The notes below the pieces were generated by a model that did not search any database, had not been told where the DNA came from, and worked only from the letters and a program-made list of their open reading frames with translations. This document shows positions 9,213 through 17,705 of a DNA stretch of 21,070 nucleotides, one piece after another. Source of the stretch: a virus. The translations under genes were made by a program, and so were the position numbers. The DNA is taken from IMG/VR virus record IMGVR_UViG_3300031658_000174, positions 1 to 21,070 of that record; one strand, written 5' to 3'. Position 1 is the first letter of the stretch, and the number at the start of each line of letters is the position of its first letter.

Positions 9213-9720
9213 AATCGTTTAAGTTTTCATACTTTTCCCAAGTATAGTTATTAATCCAAACCTCTAAATTCTGTAAGAATCCGAGGCTTTCTTTGTTTAC
9301 TAAAAGCTGTCTATCTAGACATTCCATGATATGTTTATGTAAAACTGGTTTACTATCAACAATCTTTTTATATCTATTTCTAGCCTTATCGTTTGATTTT
9401 GCTTTGGGATCGATGGCATGCAACACACGTACTCCTCTCCCTGGTGATAATACTTTCCAGGGGTATTTGTTAATCAATTCAGTGAACATTTGTTCGAAAT
9501 TAGATACAAAGAGATTGATGAACTCTTGAGTAACCCTATGGTCTTCAACAGTTTCACCTATCTCTATGTAGCTATTTTCTTTCAATTCGTCTAAATTTGG
9601 TTTTAAATTGAGGATGTTCAAATAATTAAATCCTTTTCTATATACTAGGTAAAGATAGAGATAATCGTCAGAGCTCATCTTTGTAAGCTTTAGGACTTCT
9701 AAGTCTATTTCTAACCTCAT
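9166..9720 (-). CDS. Putative replication accessory protein / helicase loader candidate
   Basis: I place the start at the ATG 9720-9718 (184 aa). A longer frame beginning at 9726 uses TTG and adds only two residues. Residues about 15-55 (SSDDYLYLYLVYRKGF, then NLKPNLDELKENSYIEI) look like a small winged-helix domain. The rest is helical with Trp and basic residues. It has its own promoter (TATATTTG at 9758-9765) and overlaps the DnaB-like gene by 47 bases. Proteins in this position often act as initiator or helicase loader; no family hit is claimed. Confidence 0.7.
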   Translation of the reverse strand: MRLEIDLEVLKLTKMSSDDYLYLYLVYRKGFNYLNILNLKPNLDELKENSYIEIGETVEDHRVTQEFINLFVSNFEQMFTELINKYPWKVLSPGRGVRVLHAIDPKAKSNDKARNRYKKIVDSKPVLHKHIMECLDRQLLVNKESLGFLQNLEVWINNYTWEKYENLNDYAPTDETKSRITRSL

Positions 9721-9757
9721 ATACAAAATTTCTTTACAGTTGAACGGAACATTAATG

Positions 9758-9765
9758 CAAATATA
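9758..9765 (-). promoter_or_regulatory. Bacteroidota-type promoter -7 box
   Basis: Read leftward the sequence is TATATTTG, an exact match to TAnnTTTG. Transcription should start about 7 bases further left (about 9750), roughly 30 bases ahead of the ATG at 9720. The surrounding stretch 9721-9804 is otherwise non-coding and AT-rich. I see no convincing -33 TTG element. Confidence 0.65.
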
Positions 9766-9804
9766 CTAATTTTTTTCATATGATAACACGTATTTAATTA
9801 TTTT

Positions 9805-10965
9805 TTATAGCCATTTTACTCCACTCAAATCACGAACTGAATTCTTTAACCACTTTTCTTCTTGAGAGTTGATGATATATAGTATATATACCTTACCTAC
9901 CTTACCCTCTTCAAATCTAATTAGTCTCCCTATTCGTTGGATCATTGACAAAGCTTTGGAAGTTAATCCACATATTATCCCTAAATTGGCATTAGGTATA
10001 TCAAATCCTTGATTTAATGCCTTTGTTGAACATAATATGTTTACTTCCCCTTCTTTAAATCTCCTCAATGCTTCTCTTCTCTTCTTAAGTGTTCTTTTAC
10101 TGTGATATACCTCTGCCAGCGGCGCAACACTTTCTGCTAGTCGATCAGTGAATTCATTTAAGCCTCCAAATGTAATTATCCTCTTATCTGGGTTAGCCTC
10201 TACTATCTCTTTAAACTTATCCACTTTTGCATACGCTTGATCTACAATACCTTTACGTTCTCTTATAGTTTTGTAAAACCCACTAGCATGATGCTTCTCT
10301 TCTGATGTCGCTTGCTTACTACCAAGGAATACCTTAGCCAAACTAAATGCATCAGGACCAAGAGCTAACTTGTGTCCTACAAACTCTTTATGTATATCAT
10401 CATACAATAGCCTCTCCCCAAATGTAAGTTCAAGGGGTACACAGTATATTTCATAAGGAGATACTAAACCCATTGACACACACTGGTCTAGAGTTATCTC
10501 ATATACTTTAGGGGCCATCTTCAACAGCTCTAATTTATACTCCACCTCTTCAGGTATTGTAGCTGTCATTGCAAGTAAATGCTTATAAGAGTTATTCTTA
10601 AAGAACTTCCTATACTCTTTACTTAAGCCTAAATGCACTTCATCACATATAACTATCGAATACTTTTGTCCTTGTAGTTTATAAGCGCTTTGATAGCACA
10701 TTATATCAATGTTATCCAAGTAGTGACCACACCCCCATTTTTCAAACTCTCCCGCAAATTGCTCTTGGAGTTGTATGGTAGGGACTAAAACCAGCGCCTT
10801 AGAAGTAGGAAAACGATCAAGAATATACTTACATGCAAGGACACCACATCTAGATTTTCCAAATCCAGTCCCAGCAATAATACTGCCAGTACCACTATTG
10901 CGAGCCCAAGCATTAAGCGCCTTTCTCTGTTGTTTGTTTTTCTCTTCATTTATAGCGTTTTCCAT
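9805..10965 (-). CDS. SF2 DEAD/DEAH-type helicase
   Basis: A 386-aa superfamily 2 helicase. The Walker A loop GTGFGKS (32-38) is followed by motif Ia-like VLVPTIQLQEQF (59-70), motif II DEVH (108-111) and motif III TAT (134-136). In the second RecA-like domain are motif V, LNQGFDIPN (about 316-324), and motif VI, QRIGRLIR (about 343-350). The short length means only the two motor domains. This resembles phage UvsW-like or Rad25/XPB-like branch-migrating helicases. Likely role: remodelling recombination intermediates or replication restart; the precise class is uncertain. Its start overlaps the end of the winged-helix gene by 16 bases. Confidence 0.85.
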   Translation of the reverse strand: MENAINEEKNKQQRKALNAWARNSGTGSIIAGTGFGKSRCGVLACKYILDRFPTSKALVLVPTIQLQEQFAGEFEKWGCGHYLDNIDIMCYQSAYKLQGQKYSIVICDEVHLGLSKEYRKFFKNNSYKHLLAMTATIPEEVEYKLELLKMAPKVYEITLDQCVSMGLVSPYEIYCVPLELTFGERLLYDDIHKEFVGHKLALGPDAFSLAKVFLGSKQATSEEKHHASGFYKTIRERKGIVDQAYAKVDKFKEIVEANPDKRIITFGGLNEFTDRLAESVAPLAEVYHSKRTLKKRREALRRFKEGEVNILCSTKALNQGFDIPNANLGIICGLTSKALSMIQRIGRLIRFEEGKVGKVYILYIINSQEEKWLKNSVRDLSGVKWL

Positions 10966-11590: not shown

Positions 11591-11641
11591 AATTCTACGC
11601 CCTTATTAGTGAGAGGGACTTTACTCTTTTATCGTATCATT

Positions 11642-11670
11642 TGAGCCAATTAGCGTATCAAATCGGCTCA
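11642..11670 (-). other. Hairpin at the end of the 36-aa frame
   Basis: TGAGCC / GGCTCA arms. On the minus-strand RNA the stem extends to 10 pairs through one G-U and three A-U pairs (TGAGCCGATT with AATTGGCTCA), loop 9 bases. The plus-strand version has an A-C mismatch at the wobble position, so the leftward RNA is favoured. There is no T-run, so it is not a classical terminator. Confidence 0.5.
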
Positions 11671-11768
11671 TTTTGTTGTATGCATTCAACGATTTTGTCT
11701 CGTTTTATCTCCAATAAACTGGACATATTAGCACTATTTATCTCCTTAAAAGTGTATTTCACCTTCAT
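11658..11768 (-). CDS. Possible short protein (36 aa)
   Basis: The minus-strand frame begins with ATG 11768-11766 (MKVKYTFKEINSANMSSLLE) and ends with TGA 11660-11658. GGAG lies about 10 bases ahead of the ATG. It starts just after the structured hairpin 11783-11832, and its stop lies within the hairpin 11642-11670. A further 16-codon frame (11621-11671) overlaps its end in another register. Evidence is only an open frame with a plausible ribosome site. Confidence 0.35.
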   Translation of the reverse strand: MKVKYTFKEINSANMSSLLEIKRDKIVECIQQNEPI

Positions 11769-11782
11769 AGGTTTTTACTCCA

Positions 11783-11832
11783 GGGTGAGCAAGAGTATTA
11801 ACCTTATGGCAAAAACGCCTTTATGCTCACCC
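11783..11832 (-). other. Stem-closed RNA-like structure between polymerase and the short genes
   Basis: A perfect 9-bp repeat, GGGTGAGCA (11783-11791) and TGCTCACCC (11824-11832), closes a 32-base interior that contains a smaller GGC/GCC hairpin. It precedes the possible 36-aa frame by 15 bases on the leftward transcript. It could be a 5' regulatory structure, a processing site or a small RNA. Confidence 0.5.
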
Positions 11833-11857
11833 CTTCGTAATGTTAATAGTGTATGAA

Positions 11858-11917
11858 TGTTGGGAGATATACTGAAATATAAACGCTTAATTAAATATTA
11901 TGTTATTTCTCCCAACA
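11858..11917 (-). other. Inverted repeat spanning the polymerase stop codon
   Basis: A perfect 10-bp inverted repeat, TGTTGGGAGA (11858-11867) / TCTCCCAACA (11908-11917), has a 40-base interior. The right arm is the last codons of the DNA polymerase gene, so the stop codon sits in the loop. In the transcript the stem would form at the end of translation. Possible roles: mRNA 3' end protection, processing, or attenuation. Confidence 0.5.
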
Positions 11918-13795
11918 ATCACTCACTGTTACTTCAGCCTTTAATAGTTTATTAGTCACTATCTCATCAGCTGCTTCTTCCATCAATTCCTTCATTTTAA
12001 CTGTCCACTCGTCTAGATAGATGTTCCTACATATAGTATCTATCTGATCATGCACAGTCATAACTATTTGAACTGGTGCTTCGTTCTCTTTAATATAGTC
12101 ACGCATTAATACTAACGCTCTCTTAGTCATGTCAGCACTAGCCCCTTGAATTGGTGTGTTCTTACTAGCTCTCTCAATACTACCAAGCTCCATTGACATT
12201 GACCTGTGTTCCCATATCCTTGGGTACCAATTGGTAAACCAACGACGTCTTCTGTAAGGAGGGAATGTAGTTATAAATCCTTTCTTCTTACCAAAGTCAC
12301 CTAATTTATCCAAGAATCCTTTAATAGCCGGGAACGCTGTGAAATACTTCTCGATAAGAAGCTTCGCATCATCAGTTGTAATGTTAATAGTATCAGCCAG
12401 TTTATTAGGCCCCATACCATAAGCTAAACCAAAGTTAATAGTCTTAACATTAGTTCTAAGCTTCTTATGTGATGGACAATTACACTTTTGCCTCGCATTT
12501 TCTGCATAATATGCACAGTCTTCTTCTGCTGCATCATACCATTGTTCACCATAAACCAACTCAGCACAGGTAGAGTGTAAGTCCTGTCCTTCTTCTAAAG
12601 CCTTTAACCAAACAGGGTCTTTAGATCCAAAGGCAATTACATTTAACTCTTGGGATGAGTAATCAGCACTTACAAAGCTCCAACTCTCAGGTGCAATAAA
12701 ACAATTCCTATAGATATTATCTGCAGGTATCTGTTGCATGTTGGGTTTTGAAGAGCTAACTCTACCTGTATCTAGAATTTGGTGAAAATTAGTATGTATC
12801 TTGTTATCAGCTTTAAGGTTCTTAAAGAATGCATCACCATATGATGTACACAATTTCATAGCCTCTTTATACTGCACGTATATATCTATAATAGGATATT
12901 TATACCTATACTTATACATCTCTTTACCGTTTACATTCTCTAAACTGCTAATAAGAGTCTTAAATACATTCAACACTTGTTTAGGTGATGTCCATTTAAC
13001 GTCCACCTTCCTTAAGTCTTGTACATCTGTGAACATATCAGCTTGTATATACTTAGCTACAAATCTCTGTAACCTAGTATCTTCTATTAATGTGTTGTCT
13101 AAGTTTATTAATAAAGCTTCAGCTTGTAATAGATTTCTCTTCTCTATCTTTTTCCAAGCTTCTGTATCTAGTCCTAATCCATTATACTCTATGTCTGCAA
13201 ATGCCAATACAGCTTCATTCTCTAAGTCTACTACTCTTTCTAAACGATTAGTTATAGTCTTAGGTATCTGTATATCTCTCAACTTACATAAATACTCAAC
13301 ATCTTTAGCCCCATAAACTATCTGAGCTTGCGTGTAAGGTGCACCATCTAATGTAATGAACTTGTTCCTTACCTCTTTGTTTAATTCAATGTTAAACTCC
13401 CTCTTAACTAGGTCTTTTAACCCAAATCCTATCTTCTTACCACAATTGTTTACTAATTCAGTTAAGAATGTATCATATACACCCTCACACTCTATGTTAG
13501 CCCATCTTTTAATGAACTTATAGTCAAACTTAGCATTGTGAAATATCTTAACTATATCCCTACTCTCAAGTATATCCCTTAATGGTTCAATACTTATATG
13601 TCTTGTATCTATTATGTATTGGTTCTCTTCATCCCCAATTTGAAACATGATCATCTTCTTACAGGTAAAGTCAAGTCCCTCAGTCTCTGTATCAACGCCT
13701 AAAACTGTCTTGCTTTCACAATACTTCTTTGCATCTTCTACTGTTGCTACCTCACATTGAGGTAATATACTAGGTGGTCCTATAAAATATATCAT
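11903..13795 (-). CDS. Family A DNA polymerase with 3'-5' exonuclease
   Basis: A 630-aa replicative polymerase. The exonuclease domain shows Exo I DTE (35-37), Exo II HNAKFDYK (86-93) and Exo III YGAKDVEYL (161-169). The polymerase domain shows VSSSKPNMQQIP, motif A ADYSSQEL, motif B RTNVKTINFGLAYG and motif C VHDQ. All exonuclease acids, the motif A Asp and the motif C Asp are present. Motif C reads HDQ where family A enzymes normally have HDE. The 5' nuclease domain of bacterial Pol I is absent, as in T7-like enzymes. It has its own promoter at 13812-13819 and should replicate the phage genome with the DnaB-like helicase and primase. Confidence 0.95.
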   Translation of the reverse strand: MIYFIGPPSILPQCEVATVEDAKKYCESKTVLGVDTETEGLDFTCKKMIMFQIGDEENQYIIDTRHISIEPLRDILESRDIVKIFHNAKFDYKFIKRWANIECEGVYDTFLTELVNNCGKKIGFGLKDLVKREFNIELNKEVRNKFITLDGAPYTQAQIVYGAKDVEYLCKLRDIQIPKTITNRLERVVDLENEAVLAFADIEYNGLGLDTEAWKKIEKRNLLQAEALLINLDNTLIEDTRLQRFVAKYIQADMFTDVQDLRKVDVKWTSPKQVLNVFKTLISSLENVNGKEMYKYRYKYPIIDIYVQYKEAMKLCTSYGDAFFKNLKADNKIHTNFHQILDTGRVSSSKPNMQQIPADNIYRNCFIAPESWSFVSADYSSQELNVIAFGSKDPVWLKALEEGQDLHSTCAELVYGEQWYDAAEEDCAYYAENARQKCNCPSHKKLRTNVKTINFGLAYGMGPNKLADTINITTDDAKLLIEKYFTAFPAIKGFLDKLGDFGKKKGFITTFPPYRRRRWFTNWYPRIWEHRSMSMELGSIERASKNTPIQGASADMTKRALVLMRDYIKENEAPVQIVMTVHDQIDTICRNIYLDEWTVKMKELMEEAADEIVTNKLLKAEVTVSDCWEK

Positions 13796-14588: not shown

Positions 14589-14792
14589 TTATGAGATTAC
14601 ATGTGCAGTTTCGTAGGAAACACTGCCAACCTTTCTTAATTTTTCACTTAACATTAAAATCACAAATTGTGTCATCTGTGCTTTAACTATTGATTGCGTT
14701 CTCTTTAGAGTTGTGCAAACTTTTATAATTCTTCTGATTCTAGCGTCTGTACCTTTTGTAGATACGACCCTACCTTTTAATTTAAGTTTCAT
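14589..14792 (-). CDS. Small basic protein of unknown function
   Basis: A 67-aa, strongly basic protein (KLKLKGRVVSTKGTDARIRR near the N-terminus) with a helical middle. It overlaps the end of the SET-domain gene by 11 bases and precedes the 229-aa gene by 10 bases. No motif is recognised. If the SET-like enzyme modifies a lysine-rich protein, this Lys/Arg-rich neighbour is one candidate; that is speculation from adjacency. Confidence 0.65.
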   Translation of the reverse strand: MKLKLKGRVVSTKGTDARIRRIIKVCTTLKRTQSIVKAQMTQFVILMLSEKLRKVGSVSYETAHVIS

Positions 14793-15162
14793 ATTCGTCG
14801 TTATAAGTATGTGTTAGTTCTTCATTAGTTAATATTCTTCTCAGTGCTACTATTCTTACTACTCTTTCGTAGTCCATATTTTGTACAATGTGACAATTAG
14901 GAGTTTTACTATGCCCTAATACAGAAGCATTCCCTAATATTATAACATCATGTCCTTCACCTGCAAATCTATAGTTACTAAGCGCATGATTTGTGCGTGG
15001 TAATATATCCTTTGCTACCACGCACTCCTCAATTACTGTACCTTCATCTATATCTTTAGTTGCAAATACACCATAACCTAAGTATTTAGCTTTCCTAATT
15101 TCAATACTATTACTTTTTATTAAACTATACTTATATAGTTTGTTACCAATATTCTTTATCAT
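14782..15162 (-). CDS. SET-domain lysine methyltransferase-like protein
   Basis: A 126-aa protein that is almost entirely a SET domain. Residues 27-34 (YLGYGVFA) match the GxG start motif, followed by KDIDEGTVIEE (36-46). GNASVLGHSKTPNC (77-90) corresponds to the NHSxxPN motif, with Gly instead of the usual Asn before His. NEELTHTYND (113-122) matches the GEELxxxY motif with the catalytic Tyr region. SET enzymes transfer a methyl group from S-adenosylmethionine to protein lysines. Pre-SET and post-SET zinc clusters are absent. Small SET proteins exist in bacteria and viruses, but targets in phages are poorly known. The start overlaps the upstream gene by 20 bases. Confidence 0.8.
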   Translation of the reverse strand: MIKNIGNKLYKYSLIKSNSIEIRKAKYLGYGVFATKDIDEGTVIEECVVAKDILPRTNHALSNYRFAGEGHDVIILGNASVLGHSKTPNCHIVQNMDYERVVRIVALRRILTNEELTHTYNDEYET

Positions 15163-15447: not shown

Positions 15448-15666
15448 TTAGTTATATTTATTTAATGGGTGATTCTTAGTCAAAGGTATTCTAGTTAATT
15501 CAGTTAATAGATTAGTTAATGACTCGTTATTATGTGTGTATTCACCAGTTTCTAGTAAATGTCTAATCCATTCTTCACATTCTTTTATTGTGCTTAATGT
15601 CTTTTTACATTGATTTTCTTCTAATGCTTCAGCATAGAACTCTTTTGATAGTTTTTCAATATTCAT
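15448..15666 (-). CDS. Small protein of unknown function
   Basis: A 72-aa helical protein with Lys/Glu-rich N-terminal half and a Thr/Asn-rich tail. It begins just after (leftward of) the large structured island 15667-16134, so any RNA structure there is its upstream leader. No family recognised. Confidence 0.7.
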   Translation of the reverse strand: MNIEKLSKEFYAEALEENQCKKTLSTIKECEEWIRHLLETGEYTHNNESLTNLLTELTRIPLTKNHPLNKYN

Positions 15667-15699
15667 CTCTCTATTTAGTTTAATTAGTATTTATTAGAT

Positions 15700-15819
15700 A
15701 ATAACAGGTCAAGCAGCGGTTTATAGCCTCATCGCGGTTTACCCCATAAGGACTACTTGTTCGACACCAACTCTAGATGGTTATCACTAACCGTTGGGCT
15801 TATTGTTACACCTGTTATT
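15700..15819 (-). ncRNA. Candidate structured RNA A
   Basis: A 120-base segment closed by a perfect 10-bp terminal stem (AATAACAGGT 15700-15709 / ACCTGTTATT 15810-15819). Inside, helices ATAAG/CTTAT (746-750 with 799-803, offsets within 15xxx), CCAAC/GTTGG (767-771 with 793-797) and GGTTA/TAACC (779-783 with 788-792) nest on one arm. The last is capped on the minus strand by GTGA, a GNRA tetraloop; the plus-strand loop would be TCAC. That favours leftward transcription. No open frame or tRNA shape is seen. Class unknown; it could also be a leader of the 72-aa gene. Confidence 0.45.
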
Positions 15820-15881
15820 AATATACTGCCGTTACCTTTAGCCTAAAGCATAATCAGTAATCATTTATCAACAGTTATTGT

Positions 15882-15989
15882 AAAAGAGAGGTACAACTCA
15901 GGCACAACACAACAGGCTATAACTTTCGTTTAGTGCTGGTATTGAGGCTGAACGTTTTATAAGGAGTCACCTAGTTATACCTCTCTTTT
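15882..15989 (-). ncRNA. Candidate structured RNA B
   Basis: A 108-base segment closed by a perfect 12-bp stem (AAAAGAGAGGTA 15882-15893 / TACCTCTCTTTT 15978-15989). Interior helices include CTCA/TGAG (15897-15900 with 15943-15946), GCAC/GTGC (15902-15905 with 15933-15936) and AAC/GTT (15921-15923 with 15928-15930). The last carries a GAAA (GNRA) loop on the minus strand. The plus strand ends in a T-rich run (TTTTTATTTTT), so rightward transcription ending there is the alternative. No coding frame is seen. Confidence 0.45.
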
Positions 15990-16036
15990 TATTTTTCAAC
16001 CAGCTCTCTATGTTACAGCTCATGTATACTTATTTT

Positions 16037-16107
16037 GCATACCAATATTACTGTTTACACTTACGAGTGTGGTGCCTGGTCTTCCCGCATTTATCCACTT
16101 TGTATGC
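16037..16107. ncRNA. Candidate structured RNA C
   Basis: A 71-base segment closed by GCATAC (16037-16042) / GTATGC (16102-16107), with an internal perfect 5-bp hairpin ACACT/AGTGT (16057-16061 with 16066-16070) around a 4-base loop. It is weaker than A and B because the outer stem is only 6 bp; strand is unclear. It directly abuts the hairpin after the 98-aa gene. Confidence 0.3.
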
Positions 16108-16133
16108 TAACTCTCTTGTCTAGCTAGAGTTAG
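16107..16133 (-). other. Hairpin just after the 98-aa gene stop
   Basis: CTAACTCT (16107-16114) / AGAGTTAG (16126-16133), perfect 8 bp with an 11-base loop, one base past the stop codon (16135-16137) on the leftward transcript. No T-run follows, so 3'-end protection or processing is as likely as termination. Confidence 0.5.
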
Positions 16134-16134
16134 T

Positions 16135-16431
16135 TTAGTTATTAAAATTGTTCATTCTTTCTATCCTTCCTTTACTATGCCTTAACATATTACCATTACC
16201 ATCAACCGTAACCCAATACAGTTCTTTAGTTTGTAGGTTAGCTACATAGACCATCCAATCATCATAAGTTTGTGCTTCATCACACCTTACATCTATTTTA
16301 GTATCTATTGGGACAGCTTCATAGCAAGGATGACTAGCCAATTGTACCCTTAAAGGTTGAATAGTAGGTGTTGACTTAGGTCGTAGTTTAGTTAGTAAAA
16401 TACTTAACAGTTTATAGAGTAATCTTCTCAT
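16135..16431 (-). CDS. Protein of unknown function with basic-hydrophobic N-terminus
   Basis: A 98-aa protein. Residues 1-18 (MRRLLYKLLSILLTKLRP) form a basic amphipathic helix that could bind a membrane or target another protein; it is too charged for a cleaved signal peptide. The rest is beta-rich with Trp, Tyr and two Cys (about 35-85). No family recognised. It stands alone between two structured non-coding stretches (15667-16134 and 16432-16622), unlike the overlapping genes further left. Confidence 0.7.
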   Translation of the reverse strand: MRRLLYKLLSILLTKLRPKSTPTIQPLRVQLASHPCYEAVPIDTKIDVRCDEAQTYDDWMVYVANLQTKELYWVTVDGNGNMLRHSKGRIERMNNFNN

Positions 16432-16622
16432 AGTGTTATATTAGTTTAATTATACATTTCAAGTTAGGTCATGACATAGTACCAAATGGTGCGAATGTGA
16501 TGTGGGTTACACGATCACAAACGCATCACTAGTCAATCCAACAACAATTGGTTAGAGGTTGGGAATATATGTTATGTTATTTATATAGTACCCTCACTCC
16601 CGAAGGAGCGAAGGTGCTATTG
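16432..16622 (-). other. Non-coding stretch with hairpins between two leftward genes
   Basis: No convincing frame. On the leftward strand it contains a small CCAA/TTGG hairpin, GTGATG / CATCAC arms and the GGTACTAT motif twice (near 16478 and at 16585-16592 read on the minus strand). The strongest element is the hairpin 16585-16620. Confidence 0.5.
16585..16620 (-). terminator. Long UUCG-capped hairpin after the 148-aa gene
   Basis: On the minus strand an 8-bp outer stem (one C-A mismatch), a four-pair middle with two wobbles, and CTCC/GGAG close a TTCG loop: the very stable C(UUCG)G tetraloop. The plus strand gives a poorer stem, so leftward RNA is favoured. It begins two bases beyond the stop codon of the 148-aa gene. 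No T-run follows, so it may protect or process the mRNA end rather than terminate fully. Confidence 0.6.
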
Positions 16623-17069
16623 TTACAGTTGTTCTGTTAGTTCAAGGAGTAAAGCCTTACCTTTCACGAAGTTCTGAACATCAGCAATGGTATCAAGTTT
16701 ATTCATTACCTTGAAGTACAAGTATTGCTCTCCCTCATCATTAGTGAAGTGAAGAGTTTGTACTCTAATGTAACTCCAGTTGATTGATGGTTCAGCATAC
16801 TTGAACTGTCCAATGGTAGTCTTACCATCTGTGTCGTAGACTGAGTAACGGTAGATGTCCTCCATTACTGGCTTACCGTGCTCGTCCATTGCACGCTTAC
16901 CATCAAGGTAAACAGGACGCTGTTCTCCAATGTTACTGAAGTCTGTGAACTCTTTTAAATTGAGTAGTTCTCCCTCTGGAAATCTTGAGTGAAGGCTGTC
17001 TACTACCTGTACTGTTACTGGTGATGAGTCCAGTTGTTCATCGATTGTTGTTGTTGCTACTGTTGCCAT
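16623..17069 (-). CDS. First gene of the leftward block, unknown function
   Basis: I choose the ATG at 17069-17067 (148 aa, MATVATTTIDEQLDSSPVTV) rather than the longer frame from a GTG at 17117, whose extra 16 residues are Trp/Cys/Phe-rich, overlap the GC palindrome 17115-17128 and look non-coding. The protein is acidic and beta-rich, with conserved-looking segments VYLDGKRAMDEHGKPV (about 53-68) and YSVYDTDGKTTIG (about 74-86). No family recognised. Being first after the divergent control region, it could be an early host-takeover or abundant protein; this is inference from position. Confidence 0.75.
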   Translation of the reverse strand: MATVATTTIDEQLDSSPVTVQVVDSLHSRFPEGELLNLKEFTDFSNIGEQRPVYLDGKRAMDEHGKPVMEDIYRYSVYDTDGKTTIGQFKYAEPSINWSYIRVQTLHFTNDEGEQYLYFKVMNKLDTIADVQNFVKGKALLLELTEQL

Positions 17070-17114
17070 TTGATTGGATGTATTGGTTAATTTATTTACG
17101 AAACACCACAGAAA

Positions 17115-17128
17115 CACCCCCGGGGGTG
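17115..17128. promoter_or_regulatory. GC-rich perfect palindrome, operator candidate
   Basis: CACCCCCGGGGGTG is a perfect 14-base palindrome in AT-rich DNA, 46 bases upstream of the first leftward gene. It could bind a dimeric regulator. CACCCCC could alternatively pair with GGGGGTG at 17485-17491 in a transcript. Confidence 0.4.
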
Positions 17129-17237
17129 GTTGAGATGAAAGAAGTAGGTAGGGTGACTTTCCAAATACCTTCCCTCTCTCACAACTCCCTCATTAAATTT
17201 TTTTTCCATTTTTCTTATATTATGTTTCCAAAAAGAG

Positions 17238-17245
17238 TATCTTTG
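17238..17245 (+). promoter_or_regulatory. Bacteroidota-type promoter, rightward
   Basis: TATCTTTG matches TAnnTTTG exactly. A start near 17252 leaves a leader of about 260 bases before the ATG at 17511, which is long for this compact genome and suggests a structured regulatory leader or a small RNA. The -33 region has no clear TTG. Confidence 0.6.
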
Positions 17246-17510
17246 CCCCGTAACATTATCATCCCTCGGTAACCAGACAAGGGAAAAGACATCGGATTGC
17301 AGTCTCAAATAGAGATAGATTTTTCTCCGGTAGTTACGAAAGAGTAGTGTATAAACTATAGTTAGGGTAGAATTAGCACACAGGTATGTGCGGTGAATTA
17401 ACATCAGTCTTACTATCCTTGGGTCCCCAGAGTAAAATGGGAGTACTGCTAAAGTGAAATCCAAACTTGAAATTGAAACCACAAGGGGGTGAACTATATC
17501 AAAATTAGAA

Positions 17511-17705
17511 ATGTCAAAATATATATGTAAGTGTGGAGAGAAGAAAGAACTTCACAAAGTTAGTATGGTAGTTATAGATGATAAGGTTCGTGTTGAAGAA
17601 GCCTTATGCCAATGTGGTGAATATATGGAAGAGGAAGATCAAAGCTTCTCTGGTTTCCCTACGTTAATACGTACTGAGCCAACATTAAATAAAAAAATAT
17701 CTTAA
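17511..17705 (+). CDS. Small zinc-ribbon-like protein
   Basis: A 64-aa protein with two CxC pairs, CKCG (6-9) and CQCG (33-36), about 25 residues apart, typical of a single zinc-ribbon knuckle. The middle is Val/Asp/Glu-rich, the tail Thr/Lys-rich. It is the first gene of the rightward block and is separated from the next by a promoter. Could be a small transcription or translation modulator; no family identified. Confidence 0.7.
   Translation: MSKYICKCGEKKELHKVSMVVIDDKVRVEEALCQCGEYMEEEDQSFSGFPTLIRTEPTLNKKIS

Follow-up and report, generated by a model that had tools for sequence, protein, structure and literature searches.

The phage RNA GOLLD increases in abundance during lysis and assembles into an RNA cage, and ROOL is another large RNA of phages whose function is unknown (PMC12286853). 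A noncoding RNA of similar length is the most abundant transcript of phage ICP1 (PMC7567579), and hammerhead ribozymes occur in phage intergenic regions as well as in clusters by which polycistronic RNA is cut (PMC3088659). A literature search on structured RNAs in crAss-like phages returned no relevant work. The locus described here is part of a linear viral record of 21,070 bases (the window, i.e., the whole stretch of DNA that was analyzed) with a leftward replication operon. The operon encodes a family A DNA polymerase (PolA; 11903 to 13795, minus strand; Pfam PF00476, PHROG 17), which served as the synteny anchor, along with a DEAD/DEAH-box helicase, a DnaB-like helicase, a primase, and recombination genes. 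Among named phages, only distant relatives of PolA were found (best 28 to 32% identity), several of them crAss-like, a similarity from which no taxon is inferred; many IMG/VR contigs showed 65 to 83% identity. Megablast and distant blastn searches against phage records found nothing. The phage is uncultivated and probably marine.

Upstream of the PolA gene, a noncoding gap of 468 bases (15667 to 16134, minus strand) separates a 98-amino-acid (aa) open reading frame (ORF; 16135 to 16431, minus strand) from a 72-aa ORF (15448 to 15666, minus strand). The 72-aa ORF has a single relative, which occupies the corresponding position in contig L001, and the 98-aa ORF shares 49% identity over 43 aa with another ORF of L001; scans with the 98-aa protein and a 229-aa protein as queries did not find relatives. 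A first-pass annotation had described about 470 bases without a plausible gene and without a tRNA or tmRNA shape, and this description held. No ORF of at least 50 aa was present between 15667 and 16134, stops interrupted all six frames, ARAGORN found neither a tRNA nor a tmRNA in the window, and an Rfam 15 search of the window returned nothing. No family was obtained at the gathering score or at E values up to 10 over positions 15600 to 16700, where a chance match to mir-11 (E value, 6.2) lay outside the gap; GOLLD, twister, and hammerhead RNAs had no match in the window at E values up to 2. The proposal of an otherwise gapless operon was too strong, as further gaps occur at 16432 to 16622 and at 11591 to 11902, the latter with another conserved RNA (element K). 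The gap upstream of PolA contained three exact inverted repeats of at least 9 bp, and two or more such repeats arose in just 2.6% of dinucleotide shuffles. It holds more than was seen at first, namely, in minus-strand order, the elements C, B, D, and A.

Element A (15699 to 15820, minus strand) is a structured RNA with a three-way junction, identified by covariance model matches and covariation. Its closing repeat had been placed at 15700 to 15819 with a length of 10 bp; the exact stem is present but comprises 11 bp and spans 15699 to 15820. The helices are P1 (AAUAACAGG/CCUGUUAUU), P2 (CCAAC/GUUGG), P3 (GGUU/AACC with a GUGA loop), and P4 (CAAGUAG/CUGCUUG). P1-P2-P3, the UAACAAUAAG junction, and the UCUAGA bulge were all found in the window copy, and the junction, the bulge, and the GUGA loop are invariant across the family, the last being the GNRA loop (GTGA) that had been proposed. 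P4 is a fourth arm of variable length that closes beside P1 in every sequence; in L019, its pairs are changed (UUGAGUAGG/CCUACUCAA). The first matches came from six PolA-linked loci. The core pattern was present in 22 contigs, one of which (L101) apparently matches by chance, and the covariance model yielded 22 matches of 118 to 150 bits including the window, hence 21 other IMG/VR contigs. A single match of the pattern in a cellular genome (Oceanobacillus) was dismissed as chance, since none of the A structure surrounded it. Across 15 distinct sequences, P1, P2, and P3 were paired in 99.6% of the cells and 6 pairs showed double changes; none of 500 shuffles was as good. P2 alone occurs as CCAAC/GUUGG, CUAGU/ACUAG, and CCAAA/UUUGG. 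Lengths of the aligned stretches run from 111 to 175 nt and do not differ by whole codons; together with the stops in all frames, this supports a noncoding RNA.

Element D (15821 to 15880, minus strand) is a structured RNA of 60 nt, likewise identified by covariance model matches and covariation. A CTTTAG/CTAAAG palindrome had been noted at 15836 to 15848; it is present but is no mere palindrome, as it forms the apical part of this separate covarying RNA. D consists of P1, an 8-nt AUAAAUGA bulge, P2, an internal loop, and P3 with a UUUAN loop, and P1/P2/P3, the AUAAAUG bulge, and the UUUAN loop were all found in the window. The covariance model gave 11 full-length matches above 74 bits (the window and 10 other contigs), and the 10 distinct sequences aligned without gaps. 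The three helices were paired in 92% of the cells compared to 76% in shuffles, 10 pairs showed double changes, and the covariation score was 0.48 versus 0.19. Stems change freely and internal loops are near-invariant; two U.G pairs are invariant as well. G.U combinations filled 26 cells and A.C combinations 3, which assigns the RNA to the minus (leftward) strand. The stability of D alone was not unusual (z = -1.1), so that fold energy would have missed it, and the case for D therefore rests on covariation. The AUAAA of the bulge could pair with the UUUAU loop, judging from the sequence only. A core consisting of the hairpin and the internal loop (ACUGANUANGCUUUANGCUAAAGGU) was present in 30 contigs, most of them in subtypes II/III, in which an extra hairpin takes the place of the bulge; about 27 contigs beyond those with D proper carry this D-related core. 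Another 11 loci that carry cores of subtype II/III had no match in Rfam.

Short strings in D recall known ribozymes (GAUAAA/UAAC and CUGA/AAAG), but a permuted twister or hammerhead was ruled out by the pairing. A hammerhead would place three stems around a CUGANGA/GAAA core. In D, the strings CUGA...AAAG flank a hairpin, yet just two strands come together at that site, covariation giving a two-way junction instead of a hammerhead junction, and no Rfam match was obtained in the window. The AUG of D was also considered as the start of a leader peptide and rejected, as the short frames differ in the codon at which they end and follow a covarying stem.

Element B (15882 to 15989, minus strand) is closed by an exact 12-bp stem, as had been described, and is an orphan: nhmmer and blastn found no relatives in more than 100 loci. 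It is modeled as a very stable structure, with single-sequence stability as the whole basis (z = -6.3 on the minus strand and z = -3.1 on the plus strand). Element C (16037 to 16107, minus strand) was said to be closed by a 6-bp repeat. GCATAC/GTATGC does pair in the fold, but this stem is weak, stability is not unusual (z = -0.8 on the minus strand and z = -1.1 on the plus strand), and the match in relatives covers a pseudoknot core and not the closure. The conserved core (about 16064 to 16107; AAAGUGGAUAAAUG...CCAGGCACCACACUCG) belongs to a family of six sequences. The 5′ part of C matches five other contigs, with 72 to 83% identity to L113, L047, L004, and L110. The crossing stems of the family, GURG/CYAC and CCAG/CUGG (CUGG/CCAG in L047), would form an H-type pseudoknot. 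In the window, the first stem is kept and the second is largely absent at the aligned columns; since the statistics are also modest (six sequences only, four cells with double changes), C is called a divergent copy.

Folding of both strands against shuffled sequence, proposed as a check in the first-pass annotation, showed A (z = -3.4 on the minus strand and z = -1.9 on the plus strand) and B to be more stable than shuffles on the minus strand, with minus exceeding plus; this did not apply to C. The suggested covariation among related contigs was present for A and D, while B is without relatives and C is limited to its six sequences. For A and D, the RNA-like character that had been claimed for the gap is thus supported by compensatory changes seen in relatives; for B there is only single-sequence stability, and for C a divergent family copy. 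Leftward transcription fared well for A and D, given the compensatory changes on the coding strand and, in D, the excess of G.U over A.C. Taken together, sequence comparison showed A and D to be conserved, covarying RNAs on the coding strand and C to be a divergent copy of a predicted pseudoknot family, with modules that differ between relatives.

Another structured RNA, element K (11772 to 11845, minus strand), is situated just 3′ of PolA, outside the 15667 to 16134 gap. In 18 sequences (the window and 17 related ones), 97% of the cells were paired and 6 pairs showed double changes; the fold was more stable than shuffles (z = -4.0), and Rfam contained no family for it. An exact 10-bp stem (TGTTGGGAGA.../...TCTCCCAACA) was also seen at the PolA 3′ end (11858 to 11917).

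Gene calls on the related loci revealed noncoding gaps of 200 to 1,000 nt upstream of PolA in many of them. Permissive Rfam searches of these gaps detected GOLLD and twister-like sites: the equivalent place, 1 to 4 kb upstream of PolA, is occupied by GOLLD or by twister-ended RNAs in relatives. GOLLD (RF02032), a phage-encoded noncoding RNA as our elements are, exceeded the cut-off in 6 of 50 whole records (E value of about 1e-60); it lies in the same island and on the same strand, and D was found upstream of it on five of the six GOLLD contigs. GOLLD, however, often exceeds 800 nt and has a conserved 3′ region (PMC12286853), and none of A, B, C, and D matches it; for ROOL, neither the window nor the island loci that were scanned gave a match. 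Twister-like sites (type P1, RF03160) were present in nine related records (E values of 2e-8 to 3e-13), all below the Rfam gathering score. In at least five of the nine, the site is the end of a conserved, undescribed RNA of about 460 nt on the minus strand (L038, 5525 to 5990; L047, 5746 to 6215; L067, 121 to 590; L106, 7660 to 8125; L113, 4368 to 4827), for which a consensus fold with 28 compensated pairs is predicted. The C module precedes this RNA in L047 and L113; the window itself is without a twister match. Weak hammerhead matches (RF00008, RF00163; E values of about 1e-5, below the gathering score) were found in the islands of the L082 group, upstream of A; in L069, upstream of a twister-like site; and in L073.

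L001 has orthologous flanking ORFs together with D and A and lacks C and B, in line with its relative of the 98-aa ORF overlapping D at its end. On other contigs, D was found without A and A without D; as the records are fragments, co-occurrence counts are lower bounds. These comparisons indicate that the gap in the window is one arrangement of a modular RNA island, a spot where functional RNAs appear to be swapped in. Further stem-closed elements were observed in the island of relatives (L047, 5330 to 5650; L058, 5960 to 6210; L002, 4620 to 4709), and a AAGAATGAACTAACC...GGATGTTCATTCTTT element is common to L002 and L058. At least two of the island RNAs are new RNA families. A, B, C, and D are all absent from Rfam 15, and current annotation is therefore blind to these families.

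We favor, with confidence only slightly above even, an island of independently folding noncoding RNAs that would be cut from the operon transcript and act in trans. Because they are found on the operon's coding strand, C, B, D, and A are presumably transcribed together with the replication genes. The modules may be cut out by self-cleavage or by host RNases at the terminal stems and, once excised, may function in trans during infection as stable structured RNAs. GOLLD is thought to act in trans, and the company of GOLLD and of ribozyme-like ends is what suggests excision as stable trans-acting RNAs. Counting against this reading, the window is without GOLLD, twister, or hammerhead matches, and the position of A, usually 28 to 80 nt before the start codon of an ORF, also fits a role in cis. 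A bolder version is possible but doubtful: a swappable island of undescribed classes (A, the D subtypes, K, and the twister-ended RNA), at least one of which would be a new ribozyme class or a trans-acting RNA machine directed against the host. No function is known for GOLLD and other large phage RNAs of this kind, and the syntenic site, where further compact structured RNAs accompany or replace GOLLD, gives a comparative handle on them. The compact elements found at the place and on the strand of GOLLD (60 and about 120 nt) are amenable to synthesis and testing, and which RNAs cooperate is suggested by the modules that occur together.

The alternative that survives best, though we regard it as rather unlikely, makes A and D folded blocks that act in cis to process or stabilize the polycistronic mRNA. 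They may be sites for RNases or for protein binding, and they would separate genes, set mRNA ends, and have no function once released. Both are intergenic and on the coding strand, K comes after the PolA stop codon in most relatives, the island also harbors ribozyme-like sites, and unrelated downstream genes would fit a general element. Such an element might be expected at many gene boundaries, however, and at most one confident copy each of D and A was found per contig; the conservation of the A loop and junction also exceeds the needs of a simple stem. That D or A represents a new self-cleaving ribozyme class appears improbable. The small size of D, its near-invariant internal loops, and its freely changing stems are what a catalytic core would show, and other island elements resemble known ribozymes, but neither a match to any Rfam ribozyme nor a recognizable catalytic motif was found, and the conserved loops are equally compatible with binding sites. 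A ligand-binding riboswitch for the next gene is very unlikely, even though many copies of A lie 28 to 80 nt ahead of a start codon. Apart from the pair in the window and L001, the ORFs that follow A are unrelated, and genes after D form a few small groups. A is therefore not tied to one gene, a conserved downstream gene is missing, and a switch for one given gene is argued against; the regulatory role for a particular neighbor that was suggested at first is disfavored accordingly. For A and D, the compensatory changes in both and the G.U bias in D refute an explanation by inverted repeats that arose by chance or by elements that work at the DNA level. This reading is scarcely credible overall, even if the genome is AT-rich and C is no more stable than shuffles.

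Elsewhere in the window, a stretch at 9460 to 9834 was considered as conserved noncoding sequence and rejected, being mostly coding in alignment. A conserved leader hairpin lies upstream of the 98-aa ORF (16425 to 16525, minus strand), followed in the numbering by a UUCG-loop hairpin of very high stability (16585 to 16620, minus strand; z = -5.1). Positions 14782 to 15162 encode a 126-aa SET-domain protein (Pfam PF00856), which to our knowledge is unusual in a phage. The divergent intergenic region at 17040 to 17540 shares 73 to 83% identity over about 250 to 400 nt with several relatives and is likely a bidirectional promoter or an origin.
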